A stretch of DNA of 64,000 nucleotides, taken from positions 806,001 through 870,000 of the forward strand of contig VFIW01000005.1 in assembly GCA_006386115.1 (NCBI GenBank). The letters run 5' to 3'. Shown here piece after piece: positions 18,649-28,589 of the stretch. Positions within the stretch are counted from its first letter, which is position 1; every line of letters starts with the position of its first letter. Source of the stretch: Globisporangium splendens. Lineage: Eukaryota > Oomycota > Peronosporomycetes > Pythiales > Pythiaceae. The translations under genes were made by a program, and so were the position numbers. The notes under the pieces were generated by a model that did not search any database, had not been told where the DNA came from, and saw only the letters and a program-made list of their open reading frames with translations.

Positions 18649-20610
18649 CTACACTTGGCCCATGCGGCTTCGGTTACCAGCCAGCGACGCGACATATTGT
18701 TTGTCTTCGAAACGACTCGGGAGGAATGCATGCGCGTACTTTGCAAGACGCTCTGCTTTTGGTTGTTCGCCCATCACATGGGCCGCCAACAGTTGTCCGG
18801 ATGCCCCGCTTGACCTATACGAGATGTTATTGTAGTCGGAAACACAGCACGCCATTGTTAGAAAGAGCACAAAGCAGAAATTGATCTTCACATGCATAAA
18901 AATCTTCAGCTCTTACATGAGTCCGACGCCAGACATGGCCGATTGCAAGAACACGCCGTCAACCGTACTCGGCGCTGGTCCGATCAATGGCATGTTGTCC
19001 ATCGTTTTGCAATAGTATCCTCCATTCACTGTGAAAGAACTGCGGACCAAGTCGTCCGTCACGTACGATTTCAGCTGAGGGAAGAGCTTCGTTAGCCCAC
19101 GTAAGCAAGTCTCTGGGAATCTACACAAGGGAACGAAGACAAAGACACTTCAGTATGCACAGCCTCCGAGACTAGGGCATCAACTGTGAAGGAAAAGAAA
19201 CGTACTTTGGGTCCAGGAGCTCTTCGACAGGGTATTTGGCAGGCACCGCTTCGATGTCGTAGGTCCACACGCACATCATCTTGTTTGCCAAATATGGTCG
19301 TACGTGGACACCTACAAGAAAAGCCACGGTCAAGATTAAGGATTGGTGCACTATTGCGGCAAGGATTGAGCTGAAAAATCGCACCAGATGGATACTCTTT
19401 GAGCATTCGTGCCGTCGCTGGGTCTTTCGCATATTCGAGTCGCTCTTCTTCAGAAAACTGGTACAAAAACATACAGAGCACGAACGTCAATACCAGTGCA
19501 TCTGTTTGCTACCAATACCGCCTCTCGTACCTCTAGGTGGCCAATCGGGTCGGAGTCAAACGTCAGCGGCATCGTAGACGTGATCGTCTGGTTGATGTCG
19601 TCAAACACGGCACGACAGTGCAATTCGTTCACAATCGGGATATCAAAGTTCGACAGATCTTTTTTCTTCAGCAACCCGAGCGTTTCCTCAAAGAGCGGTC
19701 CCGTTGCAAACACGACATTCGGAGTTGAAATGTGCTGCGTACCCTCTTCTTCAGACTCGACCTTCAGCCCACTGATGCGCCCTCCTTCGGCAAAGATGTC
19801 GGTCACTTTGCCATGCACAATTTGCGCACCGGGACAGTATTCGAGTGCTTTCGTAAGCTCGAAATTGCCCTAGGCATACAACACAAACAACAAAAGTGTT
19901 AGAACAGCAAACGCATAGGGTGAAACACTCTAAGGTCGCAGAACAAAAGGAGCGAGCGGCAACGAACCAGTTTGAATGGATTCATGGATCCGCATCGTCG
20001 AACGTGGAGCGCACCAATCGCATTCGAGTCTTTCAGCGACGGGAACACTTGTTTGATATTGTCAATACCCAGCAGCAGATCCGACCCATCGAGATCATAA
20101 TCGATTGTCTCTCGCGAGAACCTGTATCCGCTCAAATCAGATCCCACACCATGCACGCGCAGCTCACCCCCACCATTCTGACCCAACTTGCGCCCCAATC
20201 GCTCAAACTCTTCGAGTTTCTTTGGGTCGCGCGTGACAAACAGGTAACCATTGCGGTTGAGCTCGATCATGTTGTTCGTCTTTTTCGAGATCTCATCGAG
20301 CTCGTCGATCGACTGCGTCACCAGTTCGCGCATCGGTGCTTCATCGTCGCTCGGGAACCAGTTGCGGTAGCTGAACGAACCATTCGCACTACAGTACTCA
20401 CCAACGGTCCTTAGACACACACATCGATGCAGCAAATGCATCCACTTATTGAGCTCTTTACCTTGTAAGCGACAATGGCGGCAGCGCATCCACCAGGATG
20501 GGCTTGAACGCGCGGTTGAAGCGGTTGAGTTTGGCCAAGTGGTAGAACGCGGAGCAGCCGGCGACGCCCGCGCCCACGACCACCACGTCGCCTGCAGCCT
20601 TCTTCAGCAT
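18649..20610 (-). CDS. FAD-dependent oxidoreductase of the DAO family
   Basis: Seven exons (20610-20462, 20409-19968, 19869-19531, 19457-19385, 19311-19206, 19120-18917, 18814-18649) give 492 aa with consistent phase throughout. The N-terminus carries a Rossmann FAD-binding motif (VVVVGAGVAGCSAFYHLAKL, GxGxxG); a middle segment includes FATGPLFEE, and the C-terminal YYCKTMDNMPLIGPAP plus SGVGLM-SSGASG is the second FAD-contact region of glycine/D-amino-acid oxidase family proteins. It probably oxidises an amine or N-methyl amino acid, but the substrate cannot be told. No mitochondrial presequence is evident. It is head-to-head with the HutF-M20 fusion gene (488 bp between starts), so co-regulation with histidine catabolism is possible but unproven. 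Confidence 0.85.
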
Positions 20611-21097: not shown

Positions 21098-24000
21098 ATG
21101 CTCCGCGGCCTCCGACACTCCATCGCCACCTTCGCAGGAGCACGAGCGAAAGCGCCATCCGTCGCCGCATTCTCCCAACGTCGTTTCGTCTGCAGCCACC
21201 ACCGCCACCATCTCAACGCCAACATGGACAAACTACTGCAACAGCACGGCCGCGACACCAAAGCGACTAACGGCAAGGCGTACACGCTCCTACCTGAGCT
21301 CACGTGGACCGGTGAGCGATTCGAAACGGATGTGCGCGTGCACGTCGGTAGCGACGGACTCATCGAGTCTGTGACCAAGGCGGATAAGACAGCGACACAA
21401 GAAGGCGACGCCATTGCGCTGCCTGGCCATGCGTTGATCCCAGGTATGGTGAATGCGCACTCGCACGCGTTCCAACGAGGACTGCGCGGTCTCGGCGAGA
21501 CGTACCCGAAGGACACGCAGGGGAAGAGCAGTTTCTGGACGTGGCGCGAGGAAATGTACAAGCTGGTCGGCGGTATGACCCAGGACCAGATCTATGCGCT
21601 CACGAAGCAGTGTTTTACGGAAATGCTCGACGCTGGGATCACCAGTGTCGGCGAATTCCACTATTTCCACCACGGACGCCCCGAGGAAGCCGAGAATGGT
21701 GCAAGCAGCCGCTTTGCGTACGATGAGCAGATCCTAAAAGCTGCCAAGGATGTCGGTATCCGTATCGTGTTGTTGAATGCATTCTACGAGCACGGTGGAT
21801 TCCGCCAAGCGCCAATGTCGGAGCCCCAAAAGCGCTTTAAAGTGTCCTCTCATGATGAGTACTGGCGCCAGATGGATGCGCTCAAGCCGAAGCTGGACGC
21901 GTCCACCCAAACACTCGGTGTCGTTGCCCACTCCATGCGCGCAGTGGAACTTAAGGACATTGTCGAACTCCACGAAGAGAGTGTGCGGCGCGAGCTTGTG
22001 TTCCATATCCACCTTGAAGAGCAGGTATGAAGATGATGGTTCTTGTGAGCGTGATGTTGGTCTCATTGAATTCGTGTTTGTACGTGGCAAATAGACAAAA
22101 GAAGTCGATGACTGCAAGGAAGCACACGATGGCGAGACGCCCATGGCGATCCTCTTGAAGAACCTGAAGATCGACAATAAGTTCACTGCCGTTCACTGTA
22201 CCTGGACGGAGGCGGACCTGCTGAAGCAGTTCGTGGACAAGAAGGGCAACGTGTGCATTTGCCCACTCACTGAGGTACAGCATATTCGTATGTGTGCTCC
22301 TAAGTATTGTGACTCGCCAATGTCTAATGAGTTTTATTGTATCATAGGGAAACTTGGGCGATGGCTTTCCAGTGATTGCGAGCTGCTTAGACAGAGTCTG
22401 TCTTGGTACCGACTGCAATGCGAGAATTGATATGTGTGAAGAGATGCGCTGGTTGGAATACGGTCATAGACTCCACCAAAGCCGACGAGGTGTATGCACC
22501 GAGGCAACCGACGAGACCGATCTTGCAAAGTTACTCTTCCGTTATGCTACAAAGAACGGCGCCGAGTCATTGAATCTGAAAGTGGTGCGTGCGCAGACAA
22601 TTTTGCTGCGCGAAATCGATTTTTGCTTACTAATTGTTTATGTGCTACGCTGCCCTGAATAGGGGGAGATCAAGGATGGGTTCGGTGCAGATTTCGCGTT
22701 GATCGACATCAACGAAGACCAGCTGAGGTTCTCTAACCCAACCTCGCTGCTTGGTGCCTTCATCTTTGGTGCGAACGGAAGCAGCGTGGTGAAAGCAACT
22801 TGCGTGAATGGCAAGTGGCGGCAAGCGTCGTCTTCCACTTCGAAGGCTATCAGTTCGGACGATAATGCTTCGGTGCCTCAACAGTCGAAGGAGTATGTTG
22901 CCCAATTGTCTGCTGCAGCCAAATTGGCAAACACAGACAGTGATGACGTGTTGGAACTCTCCTGCGGTTTGATGAACATCGAGTCAACTTCAGGCAATGA
23001 AGAAGCAGTCGGCAAGGCACTTGAGAACTGGTTTACCACTCGAGGATGGAAAGTGGAGTTGCAAAAGGTCGCTCCACAAGGAGATGCTGCCGTGAAAGCA
23101 GATCGGTACGAGTTTGTTTTGCAGCGCTGTCGGTTGCCATCGATCAACTTGCCTTCTCACCTGTCGTCTTTGTTTTTGCAATGGCAGGTATAACGTGTAT
23201 GCTAGCCGCACTGGCAACAAGAGCCCAAGTCTGCTGTTCAACTCGCATATGGATACTGTTCCTCCTTTCCTGCCAGCTCGAACCGACGGGAAAACGTTGT
23301 ATGGACGTGGATCCTGTGACGCCAAGAGTTTGGTCGCTGCTCAAATGATCGCGTCTCAAAAGCTTGTCGAAGCTGGTTTTGCTGAAGATGTGGGACTCCT
23401 GTATGTGGTCTCCGAAGAAACCGACCATAGCGGTATGAAGAAAGCGAACGAGTTGGGCTTGAAACCTGAGCACATGGTGGTCGGTGAGCCAACAGACATG
23501 AAGATGATCCGACTGCAAAAAGGAATTCTCAAAATTCGTCTTTCTCGCCAAGGTGCTGCAGCTCATAGTGGTGAGTGACCTGCTGTCATTTTGTCGCGCT
23601 TGAATGCACCGTGATTCGAGATAACTCACGTATCTGCGTGCACTATTATTTCCAATAGGCTACCCTCATCTAGGCGATTCTGCAATCGATCCACTGATTG
23701 ACGTGCTCCATGACCTGAAGCACGAAGAATGGCCAAACTCTGAGGAGCTTGGTGCCACGACGCTCAACATTGGTATCATCAATGGCGGCCAAGCAGCGAA
23801 CGCTATCCCCGAGTACGCATCTGCAATGCTTATGTTCCGACTGACAACCAACCCAGAAGAGATCATGAATCGCGTGAAGGTACCTGCTGCTGCTGTTGAT
23901 ATTGCTGATATGTGCGTGGTTTCTTTTCTCATATTATGACTCCCTGTTGTGTGTAGGAAATCGTATCGGGACGTGTCGACATTGAGCTGTACACTTCCAA

Positions 24001-24220
24001 CTCTCCTGTTCACCTGACAGTTGTGGAAGGCTACGAGACCGACGTTGCTTCGTTCAACACGGATATCCCCTACTTCCAGTTCGACGGCAATGCGTACCTT
24101 GTTGGTGCCGGAAACATCACGGACGCGCATTGCGCGCGCGAATTCATCGAAATCGAAGACCTGCGCAACCTTGTCGACTTTTACTTCACGTTGGGAAAGA
24201 CGCTGATCGAGAAAAAGTAA
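21098..24220 (+). CDS. hutF: Formimidoylglutamate deiminase fused to M20 metallohydrolase
   Basis: Seven exons (21098-22024, 22095-22274, 22348-22584, 22663-23105, 23188-23570, 23659-23879, 23957-24220) give 884 aa in one frame. Residues ~60-500 are an amidohydrolase of the HutF type: metal site HSHAFQR (H121, H123), HIHLEEQ (H303), VHCTWT (H343) and catalytic aspartate in LGTD (D391). After a ~40-residue Ser/Asn/Gln-rich linker, residues ~541-884 are an M20 peptidase/deacylase domain: NSHMDTVPPF (H616, D618), GRGSCDAKS (D640), SEETDHSG (E672, E673), GEPTD and AAAHSG. Exon 4 encodes the end of HutF, the linker and the start of M20 without a stop. Residues 1-42 are Arg/Ser/Ala-rich and presequence-like; a second ATG at 21224 would omit them. 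HutF turns formiminoglutamate into N-formylglutamate; the M20 half may deformylate it. Confidence 0.88.
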
Positions 24221-24372: not shown

Positions 24373-26711
24373 CTAGGCTGGCGCATGAACGCCAGCAGAT
24401 TTGGTGTTGAGTTCAAATTGGATCGGGTCCAGATTGCCCCATCCTGCTCCCCACTGAATCTCCTGCTTTGCAAAGTTGACCCCAATGCGTTGCTGATAGG
24501 CTTCCAGACTTCGTTCGCTTCCAAGAGAATAAGTACCAGCAGATCTGCTGCCAGTCGGCTCCTGATTGTTATCACCACCCAGAAGCAAGCTCTTCACATA
24601 GCGCTGCGACGCTGTTCTCCATGCCGTGGTCTCGCTGACTTCGATCTCCTGGAACACACGGCGATACGAGCGTGTCCACAAATGGTAAATGATCGATTCC
24701 CCGGGCGTGAAGAAATCCCAACCGGACGTCCACAGACGCGCGCTCATCGACACTTCTTCACCGAAAAACAAAAACCGCAGCGAATCATCGTAGGGGACTT
24801 CACTGATCACTTTGGACGACGAAAACGCAAACCCGGCAGCCCAGAAGCTCGAAGGAAGCGGACTGAGAGAAGGCATAAACACACACCATCAGTAAGAGCA
24901 AGAGCGTTGTAGTTTCAAAAGATACGTACACTGGTGAGATCGCGGCGAGTGTTTTACTGGCTTGGCGAAGTATCCCATTCTCATCGAATGCTGACGCGCA
25001 TAACAGCGTTGGGCGACGGTCTGATGATACGTTGTTCGGTAGCGCGTACCCAAGCGGGTACGTCGTCAGGATCGGCTTTGACGATGCGCAGAGTTGCAGC
25101 TGATCGAGAAGAAACACGTCCCAACCTGCGCGGAATCGCATATGGCTGTCGATTTGCAGGTAGAAGTCCTCCCCATTCCACAACTTTTGCACCCCTGCGC
25201 GAGCCACACACGGACCGGCGGCACTACGGTAGTCCACAAACTGCATGCGTACTTGAGAGCGTGGGTACGTCTCTTCAAAGTGGCGGAGCGTGTCGTCATT
25301 TTCATTCTCTTGCAAGTAAATGCCGATGTGAATGCGGTCGGGAAACGTTGCTTTCTGCAGCAAATCCGCGACGGTGTGTCTGCATTCCGGGTCACGATAG
25401 CTTGGGATGCCAACGAAAATGGTACGCGCATCCCCTGCTTCCTTCGAGGATAAGTTGCTGTTTTGGCTTAAAGATGGCAATGGCTTTGAACTCGTCTGTG
25501 ATTGTTGCTTCAGGAGTCCGCTTCTAGAAGCAGGATCTGGCTGCTCCTTTGCTGCGCGTCCATAGTACCACACTGTTATCGCCATGCGCTCGTGGAAAGT
25601 CGGAAGCACCTCATGCTCCACATCCAGACTTCGAAACACGACCAGCGTGTCCAGCTTTGGGGCAACATCCCAGTGCTGCATTGGAAGAGTCGAGGTTCCC
25701 TTCACGTACACACGCAGTTGGCCTTCGTGCTCGGGTACCCAATCTTGGTTCAGATAATACACACACGTGAGAATGCGCACGAGTCCATCCGAAGATGACG
25801 AAATGCCGCTTTCGTCCTGGTGCGCTGTCGAATACGTGTCCGTGTGCTTCACAAATCGACTTCCATCGCCTGGCTACATACGCAAAAAACAAGCACAAAG
25901 TCAAGGAGCACACGTCTGATAGCATCACGCGCAGTATCCGTGATCCCAACGATGCAACATGTAAGAAGAAGCAAAAGGATACAAAAATGGCGAATTGCGT
26001 TGATGTGACGTTCCGAAGATCCAGGTCGGGATTCGCCTTTTTGAAGCCGTACGCCACACTCTCGACTTGCTTCATCAGGTACAGAATCGCAGGATGCAGC
26101 ACATCTGACCGGTTCAGGTCACTGGGACGCTTGACCCAGTGGATGCGATCTCCGCGCACGGTACGCTCGTTGCGAAGGTGATCGCCGTGTCCGACCTTGG
26201 CTTCATGGAACAATTCGGTCTTGGTGAGCGCGAGCAATGCGTCACGCACGGCGACAGCATGGTCCGACCCGAGAAATGCGTCTTTCACGACAAAGCCTGG
26301 CGACTCGGGATGCTTCAGAACTGGCAGTATGCATGCACATCGCGAAGTTAAAGCATCGTGCTATTTGATACGCGTGATGGGAGATTGGTTCAGGTACGTA
26401 CCAAACAATTCGGAAGGGTTCAGCTTCGCATTCGCACTAGCTGCTTTGCTTGGACGACTCACGTTCGTAGCTACTGCCGGGTACGAAGCTGAAGCCGCGA
26501 GTGCATCGCCACTCCCACCCGTCCGCTGATCTGCCACAGCAGCTTCTATCGCTTCGTCAGCAGCTTTGTCCACTTTCCCGTTGCTCTCTGGTTTGACTGG
26601 AGGCGCACTCGACTGTGCTAGAGCGTTCGCTTGCAGTGGCGTCCCCAGAGAGGCCTCCACGAGCGCCTGCAGTTGCGGCGAAAGCACACTCAGCAGCGAT
26701 TTCTTGTCCAT
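24373..26711 (-). CDS. Prolyl 4-hydroxylase/GlcNAc-transferase fusion (PhyA-Gnt1 type)
   Basis: Four exons (26711-26402, 26320-25983, 25873-24930, 24862-24373) give 693 aa. After a ~100-aa Ala/Ser-rich leader comes a 2-oxoglutarate/Fe(II) dioxygenase of the PHD2/PhyA group: PGDGSRFVKHTD (H226, D228), CVYYLNQDW, the distal histidine in DVEHEVLP (H303), the 2OG-binding arginine in HERMAITVWYYG (R312). From ~369 follows a GT60 glycosyltransferase: FVGIPSYRDPECRHTV, VDYRSAAGPCVAR, QIDSHMRFRAGWD, FWAAGFAF and FFGEEVSMSARLWT, as in Dictyostelium Gnt1. There PhyA hydroxylates a Skp1 proline and Gnt1 adds the first GlcNAc; here both steps sit in one chain. No signal peptide or membrane segment, fitting a cytosolic enzyme. 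It is tail-to-tail with HutF-M20, only 152 bp apart. Confidence 0.88.
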
Positions 26712-27141
26712 CGGCGCTCTTCTGCTGCGCGTGGCTTCAATTGTTCGTGTGCAAATCGAATCCAATCGCGATGGTATCAGATCCAGCAGCAGACACCTGA
26801 TCCGATCAGGTACTTTGATAAGGCAGAGTACTGTATGCATAGCTGAGTCTGAGACCGTGACGAGCCTCAAGCGCAACTTCAATAGAAACAACCAATATCC
26901 CTTTCATAATGAGCATTCATGATACAGAAAACAATATTCTAAAGTCACAGATAAAGTTTCTGTTTATAAGAAGGATCGTTATTATAGAGAGGCATTTAAT
27001 GTACCGTGATTACCTGTGTGGAAGAGCTGATGAGCAGCCACAATGGAGACCAAATGCGCGCCTGCATCCTTTGATCAGCAGCATCCTACTATTTCTCCAT
27101 TCAAGCAGCCGCGACACACACAAGACGAAAGACCCAGCGCC
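26712..27141. promoter_or_regulatory. Divergent intergenic region, PhyA-Gnt1 / HutI
   Basis: A 430-bp AT-rich region between two divergent starts. The stretch CTACTATTTCTCCATTC at about 27087-27103 loosely resembles the oomycete initiator about 40 nt before the HutI ATG. An in-frame upstream ATG at 27043 could extend HutI by 33 residues with no family similarity. Confidence 0.35.
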
Positions 27142-28589
27142 ATGAGCTCCTTCCGCCTCCGCATCACCAACGCGCGCCAGATCGTGCAGGTGTGCGCCAA
27201 CCGCGAAAAGTTCAAAGCCGGCAAGGCGCAGGACGAACTCGCGGTGATCGCGCACGGCGCGCTCGTGGTCGACCACGACGGTAAGATCGCGGCCGTTGGC
27301 ACGGACGAATACGTGGCGCAGTGGCTGCAGACGCAGCCGCAACCCGTGCACTTTGACAAAGAGATCGACGGCAGCGAGTTTTGTATCCTGCCCGGGTTTG
27401 TCGACGGTCACACGCACCCTGTGTGGAGCGGCAACCGCGTCGGCGAATTCGCGATGAAGCTCGCTGGCGCGACGTACATGGAGGTTGGATTTTTTGTATT
27501 GTTGTGTGTTTTATGTTGGTTGAGCACCGCAACACTCATGGTTTTATGTGTGGCTTCACTGTACGCAGGTCCATGAAAGCGGCGGTGGCATCAACTGCTC
27601 CGTGCGCGCGACGCGGAACAGCAGCGAAGAGGAGCTCTCGCAGTTGCTCACGGCTCGTCTCGACCGCATGCTGCGCAGCGGCACGACGCTGATCGAGGCC
27701 AAGAGCGGCTACGGACTAGAGACTGCGACCGAATTGAAGATGCTGCGTGTGCTGCACAACGCCAAGCACCCAGTCGAGATCGTGTCGAACTACCTGGGCG
27801 GCCACTCGGTTCCCGAGGGCATGACCGCGGCCGCAGCGACCGACGACATCGTCAACAACCAGATCCCCGCCGTCGCCCAGGCCATTAAGGACGGCACCAT
27901 CTCGCCTGAATTCATGTAGGTCCCTACCTAAAATCATTTGTTCCTTGAGGTACATGCAGTAGGCTAATCAGTTGTACTTTACCAGTGACGTGTTTTGCGA
28001 GAAGGGCGTGTTCGAGCACGACGATACGCGCCGCATCCTCGAAGCTGGCGCGAACGCCGGGCTCAAGATCAACTTCCACGGCGACGAGATGTGCGCGATG
28101 CAGTCCGGCACGCTCGCGTCGGATCTCCATGCGCGTGCCGTTTCCCACTGCGAGATGCTCACGGCCAAAGACCTCGAGGCGATGGCGAACCATACGCCAG
28201 ACCCAGTGTTCGCGGTGCTGCTGCCGACCACCAAGTACATCCTCAAGTTGCCGAGTCCACCGGCGCGCGACATGCTCACCGCGGGCGTGCCGATCGCGCT
28301 CGGTAGTGACTTCAACCCAAACGCGCACTGCATGTCAATGCCTATGACCATGAACATGGCGTGCGTGCTCTTCGGCATGACCATGAAGGAGGCGCTCGTT
28401 GGCGCGACGATCAACGCGGCCGCCTCGATCGACCGTTCGGCCACCCACGGCAGCATCGAAGTCGGGAAGCAAGCCGATCTCGTGATCTTGCGCGCGACGC
28501 AGTGGGAGCAGGTGATCTACGAAATGGTGGACCCGCCTATCGAGTTTGTCGTGAAGAAGGGCGTCTTCTACCCATCCAACAAGCAGTAA
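27142..28589 (+). CDS. hutI: Imidazolonepropionase (HutI, AMDHD1-like)
   Basis: Three exons (27142-27483, 27569-27915, 27986-28589) give 430 aa, the usual family length, with high similarity to animal AMDHD1 along its whole length. Landmarks: CILPGFVDGHTHPVW (metal ligands H90, H92), FAMKLAGATYMEVHESGGGI, LIEAKSGYGL, EFIDVFCEKGVF across the second intron, NFHGDE and ALGSDFNPNAHC. The enzyme opens 4-imidazolone-5-propanoate to N-formimino-L-glutamate, the third step of histidine degradation. Its product is the substrate of the HutF half of the fusion protein 3 kb away. The start at 27142 matches the AMDHD1 N-terminus. Histidase and urocanase are not in this window. Confidence 0.95.

Follow-up and report, generated by a model that had tools for sequence, protein, structure and literature searches.

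A single gene encodes a HutF-like amidohydrolase fused to an M20 deacylase

The stretch analysed here comprises 64,000 nucleotides of the oomycete Globisporangium splendens (assembly GCA_006386115.1, contig VFIW01000005.1, positions 806,001 to 870,000 of the forward strand; hereafter the window). A gene at 21098-24220 on the + strand, with seven exons and six GT-AG introns, gives 2655 nt of spliced sequence and an 884 aa protein, which displays a HutF-like amidohydrolase domain (about aa 62-515) followed by a linker and by an M20 deacylase with its dimerisation domain (about aa 540-884). Exon 1 (21098..22024) encodes an N-terminal extension and the first part of the HutF domain, which continues through exon 2 (22095..22274; HCTW motif, H343) and exon 3 (22348..22584; TDCNARID motif, D391). 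The end of HutF, the linker (about 22828-22938) and the start of M20 all lie within exon 4 (22663..23105), in line with an earlier note on this DNA that had placed the fusion junction inside a single exon. The M20 catalytic core is encoded by exon 5 (23188..23570; H616, D618, D640, E672, E673, E696 and H722), the dimerisation domain by exon 6 (23659..23879; N771 and R784) and the C-terminal part, with H855 and the stop codon, by exon 7 (23957..24220). The same note had described one continuous reading frame; a single frame does run through both domains, but only once the six introns are spliced out. By profile bounds the linker measures 24 aa, and in the AlphaFold model of the Globisporangium ultimum protein P0001 residues 462-498, equivalent to about aa 504-540 of the 884 aa protein, have a predicted local distance difference test score (pLDDT) below 50; the linker between the two halves is thus predicted to be disordered.

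All 842 residues of the annotated G. ultimum P0001 align gap-free with the protein at 96.6% identity, and the first 42 residues, presequence-like by eye only, are missing from that model. Identity to G. splendens P0002 is 94.4% with 37 gap positions, which are a gene-model difference, the M20 part alone being 98% identical. A merger of two adjacent genes during assembly or gene modelling could in principle produce such a protein, and in Nothophytophthora the two halves are indeed annotated, in two instances, as separate neighbouring genes. However, the upstream models (P0163 and P0164) terminate at the last residues of exon 4, so that the split coincides with the position of intron 4, and the downstream models (P0047 and P0045) have the M of HMDT as their first residue and so lack the first metal ligand; each pair therefore looks like one gene cut by annotation, and the frame error or two-gene arrangement that had been considered earlier finds no support there. 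The fusion is moreover present in proteins of many species, and it is carried by an Amoebophrya sp. entry (P0035) from MMETSP, a transcriptome project, which argues for one mRNA. An artefact is scarcely credible, and the HutF-M20 fusion is real and conserved.

The HutF half retains the active-site residues of the bacterial enzyme

The best family of the N-terminal half is hutF (TIGR02022), with 372 bits over aa 64-501, and NF006681 gives 348.7 bits; both scores lie below the curated cut-offs (413.05 and 362), which belong to NCBI models built for bacterial and archaeal genomes, and the claim made here is that this half works like HutF. The Pfam model Amidohydro_1 gives 138.8 bits (cut-off 25). 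Residues H56, H58, H206, R209, H232, H269 and D320 of Pseudomonas aeruginosa HutF, its metal and substrate residues, correspond to H121, H123, H278, R281, H305, H343 and D391 of the fusion, all of them identical across the 16 aligned fusions; the counterparts of H232, R209 and D320 were read off an alignment with the P. aeruginosa protein, the others being assigned by motif order. Four of the ligands proposed earlier (H121, H123, H343 and D391) are in place, but the fifth, H303, gives way to H305, since it is H305 that aligns with the metal ligand H232. Both H303 and H305 are invariant in the aligned fusions. Compared with the HutF formimidoylglutamate deiminase of P. aeruginosa (3mdu, 3mdw and 4rdv), the protein described here differs in having an M20 domain fused to it and in scoring under the NCBIfam cut-offs.

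The M20 half is complete and stays below the listed substrate-specific cut-offs

Peptidase_M20 (PF01546; 66.4 bits, cut-off 24.6) and M20_dimer (PF07687; 74.1 bits, cut-off 21) both recognise the C-terminal half. The M20 domain had been called complete, and H616/D618, D640, E672/E673 and the distal H855 are indeed in place and invariant in the 16 aligned fusions, as is E696; in M20 enzymes these positions are an H-x-D motif, a bridging D, an EE pair, a third-ligand E and a distal H. Across both halves, 19 of the 19 active-site positions inspected are invariant in all 16 proteins, and the invariance of the metal and catalytic residues makes a catalytically idle M20 half, kept as a dimerisation or regulatory scaffold, hardly tenable.

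No substrate-specific M20 model reaches its cut-off among the best 25 of 66 and of 44 families. The DapE equivalogs NF009557 and TIGR01900 give 98.2 and 95.7 bits (cut-offs 284 and 304.2), and succinyl-diaminopimelate desuccinylase models taken together give 91-121 bits against cut-offs of 284-381. The common fold, the metal-site residues, the catalytic Glu pair and the dimerisation domain are shared with M20 deacylases of the ArgE/DapE group (7rsf, 8uw6, 8f8o and 5xoy), but the half studied here lies below every listed ArgE, DapE or ArgE/DapE cut-off and is fused to HutF. The fusion protein matches four Pfam families, and PF05013, the family of the HutG N-formylglutamate amidohydrolase, is not one of them; the reaction that we propose would be like that of HutG, but the family is unrelated.

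The host genome encodes the upstream histidine pathway and gives no match to HutG

Profile searches of the 53.3 Mb host assembly, whose completeness is not known, were run exon by exon. Histidine ammonia-lyase (HutH) scores over its cut-off on contig C119, and urocanase is present. Imidazolonepropionase (HutI), which catalyses the step before HutF, is encoded 2.8 kb from the fusion at 27043..28562 on the + strand (the span of the two tested exon frames); with TIGR01224 the first frame (27043-27573) scores 61.3 bits and the second (28140-28562) 139.1 bits. A standard HutG elsewhere in the genome, which would have spoken against the earlier proposal, was looked for, and PF05013 gave no match in the exon-by-exon search; the FTCD formiminotransferase likewise gave none (for each, the control matched 1 of 14 genomes). 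Two host genes with an arginase fold score as true arginases.

An M20 half acting as N-acetylornithine deacetylase (ArgE) would make the fusion a link between histidine and arginine metabolism. By sequence, E. coli ArgE is the closest relative with a solved structure (7rsf, E value 7.8e-20), and some sources name relatives of the M20 half "acetylornithine deacetylase"; nevertheless the half obtains 129 bits with the ArgE model TIGR01892 against a cut-off of 297.7, and ArgJ is present in the host genome, so that ornithine can be made without need for ArgE. We regard this assignment as quite improbable.

Other features were recorded on the host contigs. Apart from HutH on C119, open reading frames of 1002 and 1005 aa (C162 805435-806070 and C26 33055-33702) match part of the aromatic amino acid lyase family, with E values of about 1e-28 to 1e-27. 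Within the window, a fragment of an FAD-dependent oxidoreductase (DAO; 28.8 bits, cut-off 27.9) lies upstream of the fusion at 19902-20489 on the - strand, and a frame at 24803-25852, also on the - strand, combines a 2-oxoglutarate-Fe(II) oxygenase domain with an N-acetylglucosamine (GlcNAc) glycosyltransferase, resembling the Skp1 prolyl hydroxylase-GlcNAc transferase pair.

The fusion occurs in oomycetes and in distant eukaryotes

The domain order HutF then M20, which the earlier note had proposed to seek in other proteomes, was found in database proteins of oomycetes and of distant eukaryotes. A search with the M20 half among fusion-length database proteins returned 43 matches, 34 with HutF as well and HutF always first; among fetched database proteins, 43 of 280, plus the query, hold both halves, complete or partial, again with HutF first every time (in P0022 a second, spurious stretch makes the outer bound too wide). 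Oomycetes that carry it include Globisporangium, Pythium, Lagenidium, Phytophthora, Hyaloperonospora and Peronospora; beyond oomycetes the fusion is found in Perkinsus, Amoebophrya and Sphaeroforma arctica.

In the M20 tree a main group (oomycetes, alveolates and Sphaeroforma) and a second fusion group (P0022, P0023, P0025 and P0026) are parted by unfused proteins from bacteria, algae and nematodes. A tree constrained to hold the M20 halves in one clade was rejected by the approximately unbiased (AU) test (p 0.0121; 20 fusion rows versus 26), whereas one clade of HutF halves was rejected neither for those 20 rows versus 26 (p 0.221) nor for the 16 main rows versus 30 (p 0.297); with either half, the fusion group is monophyletic in 0% of 200 bootstrap trees. 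The final trees omit long-branched or partial fusions (P0024 from both, P0031 and P0048 from the M20 tree, P0042 from the HutF tree) as well as three unfused neighbours located among the fusions (P0108, P0109 and P0132); bacterial loci, the row own_DapE and further unfused rows are likewise omitted. The M20 tree has five label changes with the omitted rows included and three without. The rejection of one clade for M20 but not for HutF suggests that HutF and M20 either came together on two occasions or were fused early and later separated in several lineages. A further database protein, P0176 (659 aa, on a single 2.1-kb contig), carries at the N terminus of HutF a peptide deformylase that has kept all three of its motifs; the nearest tree relative of its HutF is P0186, from a eukaryote collection.

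The clade neighbouring the M20 halves of the fusions contains three of four proteins in which aspartate kinase is fused to M20 (P0036, P0038, P0039 and P0040), perhaps lysine-pathway fusions with DapE function. This neighbourhood, together with a bacterial member of that clade encoded beside DapB and a lid motif in the M20 half (HSGYPHLG) that resembles DapE by eye, might point to a desuccinylase of the DapE kind, or to some other enzyme of the lysine pathway, in the fusion itself. Against it stand the desuccinylase scores given above and the oomycete route of lysine synthesis, which is reported to run through a fused dihydrodipicolinate reductase-diaminopimelate aminotransferase with no DapE step (PMC2705460), so that DapE is not expected in oomycetes; a lysine-pathway role is very improbable. 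An M20 gene on host contig C89 (3228-4157, L003) scores 572 bits as DapE and has a DapD-like frame (by eye) upstream. With a GC content of 0.62 against 0.53 for the window, and of 0.89 at third codon positions, this locus is a likely bacterial contaminant, and we therefore dropped the argument that a dedicated host DapE frees the fused M20 from that task.

Free-standing M20 relatives in bacteria

Acidobacteriota were screened with P0072 as the query at an E value of 1e-85, with at most five candidates scored per genome, and 3 of 396 genomes passed. Among the six genomes followed, HutF is over cut-off in three (G001, G201 and G375), all three without a HutG match, a pattern that comes from a small sample in which FTCD was not searched; G002 shows the reverse, with HutG but without HutF over cut-off, and G342 and G003 have neither. 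The best free-standing M20 proteins among the 396 genomes belong to G201 and G375, where M20 and HutF are not neighbours. In G001 an ArgE-class M20 gene follows hutF on the same strand at a distance of about 0.7 kb, with a 153-aa open frame between the two (contig C33, 60186-60644; L073 8187-8645). The M20 gene on contig C66 of G001 was not counted as a HutG substitute, given its grouping with the aspartate kinase-M20 proteins and its DapB neighbour.

A Streptomyces plasmid with the order HutH-HutU-HutI-HutF showed no HutG or M20 among the seven frames scanned in 17 kb; a transposase follows HutF, which makes the plasmid uninformative. The occurrence of M20 "allantoate amidohydrolase" genes in actinobacterial hut clusters was not confirmed by this one plasmid or by a literature search, actinobacterial genomes not having been searched. 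One canonical hut cluster, on a Croceicoccus plasmid, has HutF and HutG together, and a Paracoccus plasmid carries HutG (PMC4447125).

The M20 half probably acts in place of HutG

In the reaction scheme that we propose, the N-terminal half would deiminate N-formimidoyl-L-glutamate to N-formyl-L-glutamate and ammonia, and the C-terminal di-metal M20 half would hydrolyse N-formyl-L-glutamate to L-glutamate and formate, replacing HutG; one protein would then be a bifunctional histidine-catabolism enzyme performing the last two steps in sequence. The core of the case is that the product of HutF lacks an enzyme in the host, and that the partner of HutF belongs to a family of N-acyl-amino-acid hydrolases. 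The activity of the HutF half, the substrate of the M20 half and their sequential action are what we infer from the pathway gap, the conserved fusion and its recurrence, and hydrolysis of N-formylglutamate by the M20 half, as judged from sequence, is the best-supported reading and a probable one. The earlier note had proposed this replacement as the simplest reading: one fused gene, two intact catalytic domains and the missing HutG match are supported, but the step to function is inferential, and an earlier candidate of the M20 group proved inactive, as described below. Its further suggestion, that the intermediate is received directly by the M20 half, is unsupported, since the linker is predicted to be disordered.

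Aminoacylase-1 and ArgE accept N-formyl amino acids, and the M20 half might thus be a broad, aminoacylase-like N-acyl-amino-acid hydrolase with deformylation as one of several activities, for instance in the recycling of N-acetyl- and N-formyl-amino acids. The lack of any substrate-specific model at cut-off among the families compared is in agreement with this, as are the free-standing relatives in genomes without HutF over cut-off. However, a broad hydrolase leaves the fusion to HutF in distant lineages unexplained, and the host genome also has a single exon that resembles aminoacylase-1, scoring 171.5 bits with TIGR01880, whose cut-off of 338.6 applies to the whole protein; we consider it unlikely.

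Several observations weigh against a dedicated N-formylglutamate hydrolase. The HutF half scores below the curated HutF cut-offs. The absence of HutG comes from the exon-by-exon search of one eukaryote with an assembly of unknown completeness, other fusion lineages not having been searched. M20 relatives are unfused in many organisms, brown algae and nematodes included, and the family occurs in G342, G002 and G003 without HutF over cut-off, which points to other roles for it. A HutF relative is absent from six of six bacterial neighbourhoods of free-standing M20 genes (about 13 kb each; L024, L025, L063, L064, L065 and L066), and the clade to which the C66 protein belongs, with its gene preceding DapB, looks lysine-related. 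A single origin of the HutF halves is not rejected by the AU test. Finally, Gerdes et al. 2011 (PMC3223725, Table 3) predicted a COG0624 family to be an alternative N-formylglutamate deformylase and detected no such activity in the Streptomyces avermitilis protein; the idea, an M20-group enzyme for HutG, is the same as ours, but theirs was a free-standing protein and was inactive when tested. Such a prediction can evidently fail. COG0624 is the ArgE/DapE-like M20 group, and the plant homologue in that study, At5g43600, is a ureidoglycolate amidohydrolase from a different M20 branch, so that the negative Streptomyces result may not touch the M20 clade of the fusion.

With hydrolysis of N-formylglutamate still the preferred reading, a wider proposal is possible, although we hold it somewhat less than probable: eukaryotic HutF would have been fused repeatedly to deformylating enzymes (to M20 twice and to peptide deformylase once), giving bifunctional deiminase-deformylases that replace HutG without being homologous to it and carry histidine catabolism to its end in oomycetes, perkinsids, syndinian dinoflagellates and ichthyosporeans, with N-formylglutamate perhaps passed locally.

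Metabolic domain fusions are typical of oomycetes, 273 multifunctional fusion proteins having been reported for P. sojae, and the main text of that report contains no amidohydrolase, M20, formimino, peptidase or deacetylase, although its supplementary list of the 273 may include the gene (Morris et al. 2009, PMC2705460). Among the literature matches listed we found no description of a HutF-M20 fusion, that supplementary list being a place that may hold one; the domain pair is already visible in databases, some of which call it "formiminoglutamate deiminase". Should the M20 half prove to hydrolyse N-formylglutamate, this would revive a prediction abandoned after a single negative test on another M20-group protein, and an M20 clade whose members are at present annotated, if at all, as "acetylornithine deacetylase" or simply as M20 would gain a function. 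Eukaryotes with HutF but no HutG would then have an enzyme for the final, otherwise missing step of histidine breakdown. Oomycetes and Perkinsus include crop and shellfish parasites, whose amino-acid catabolism is of practical interest.
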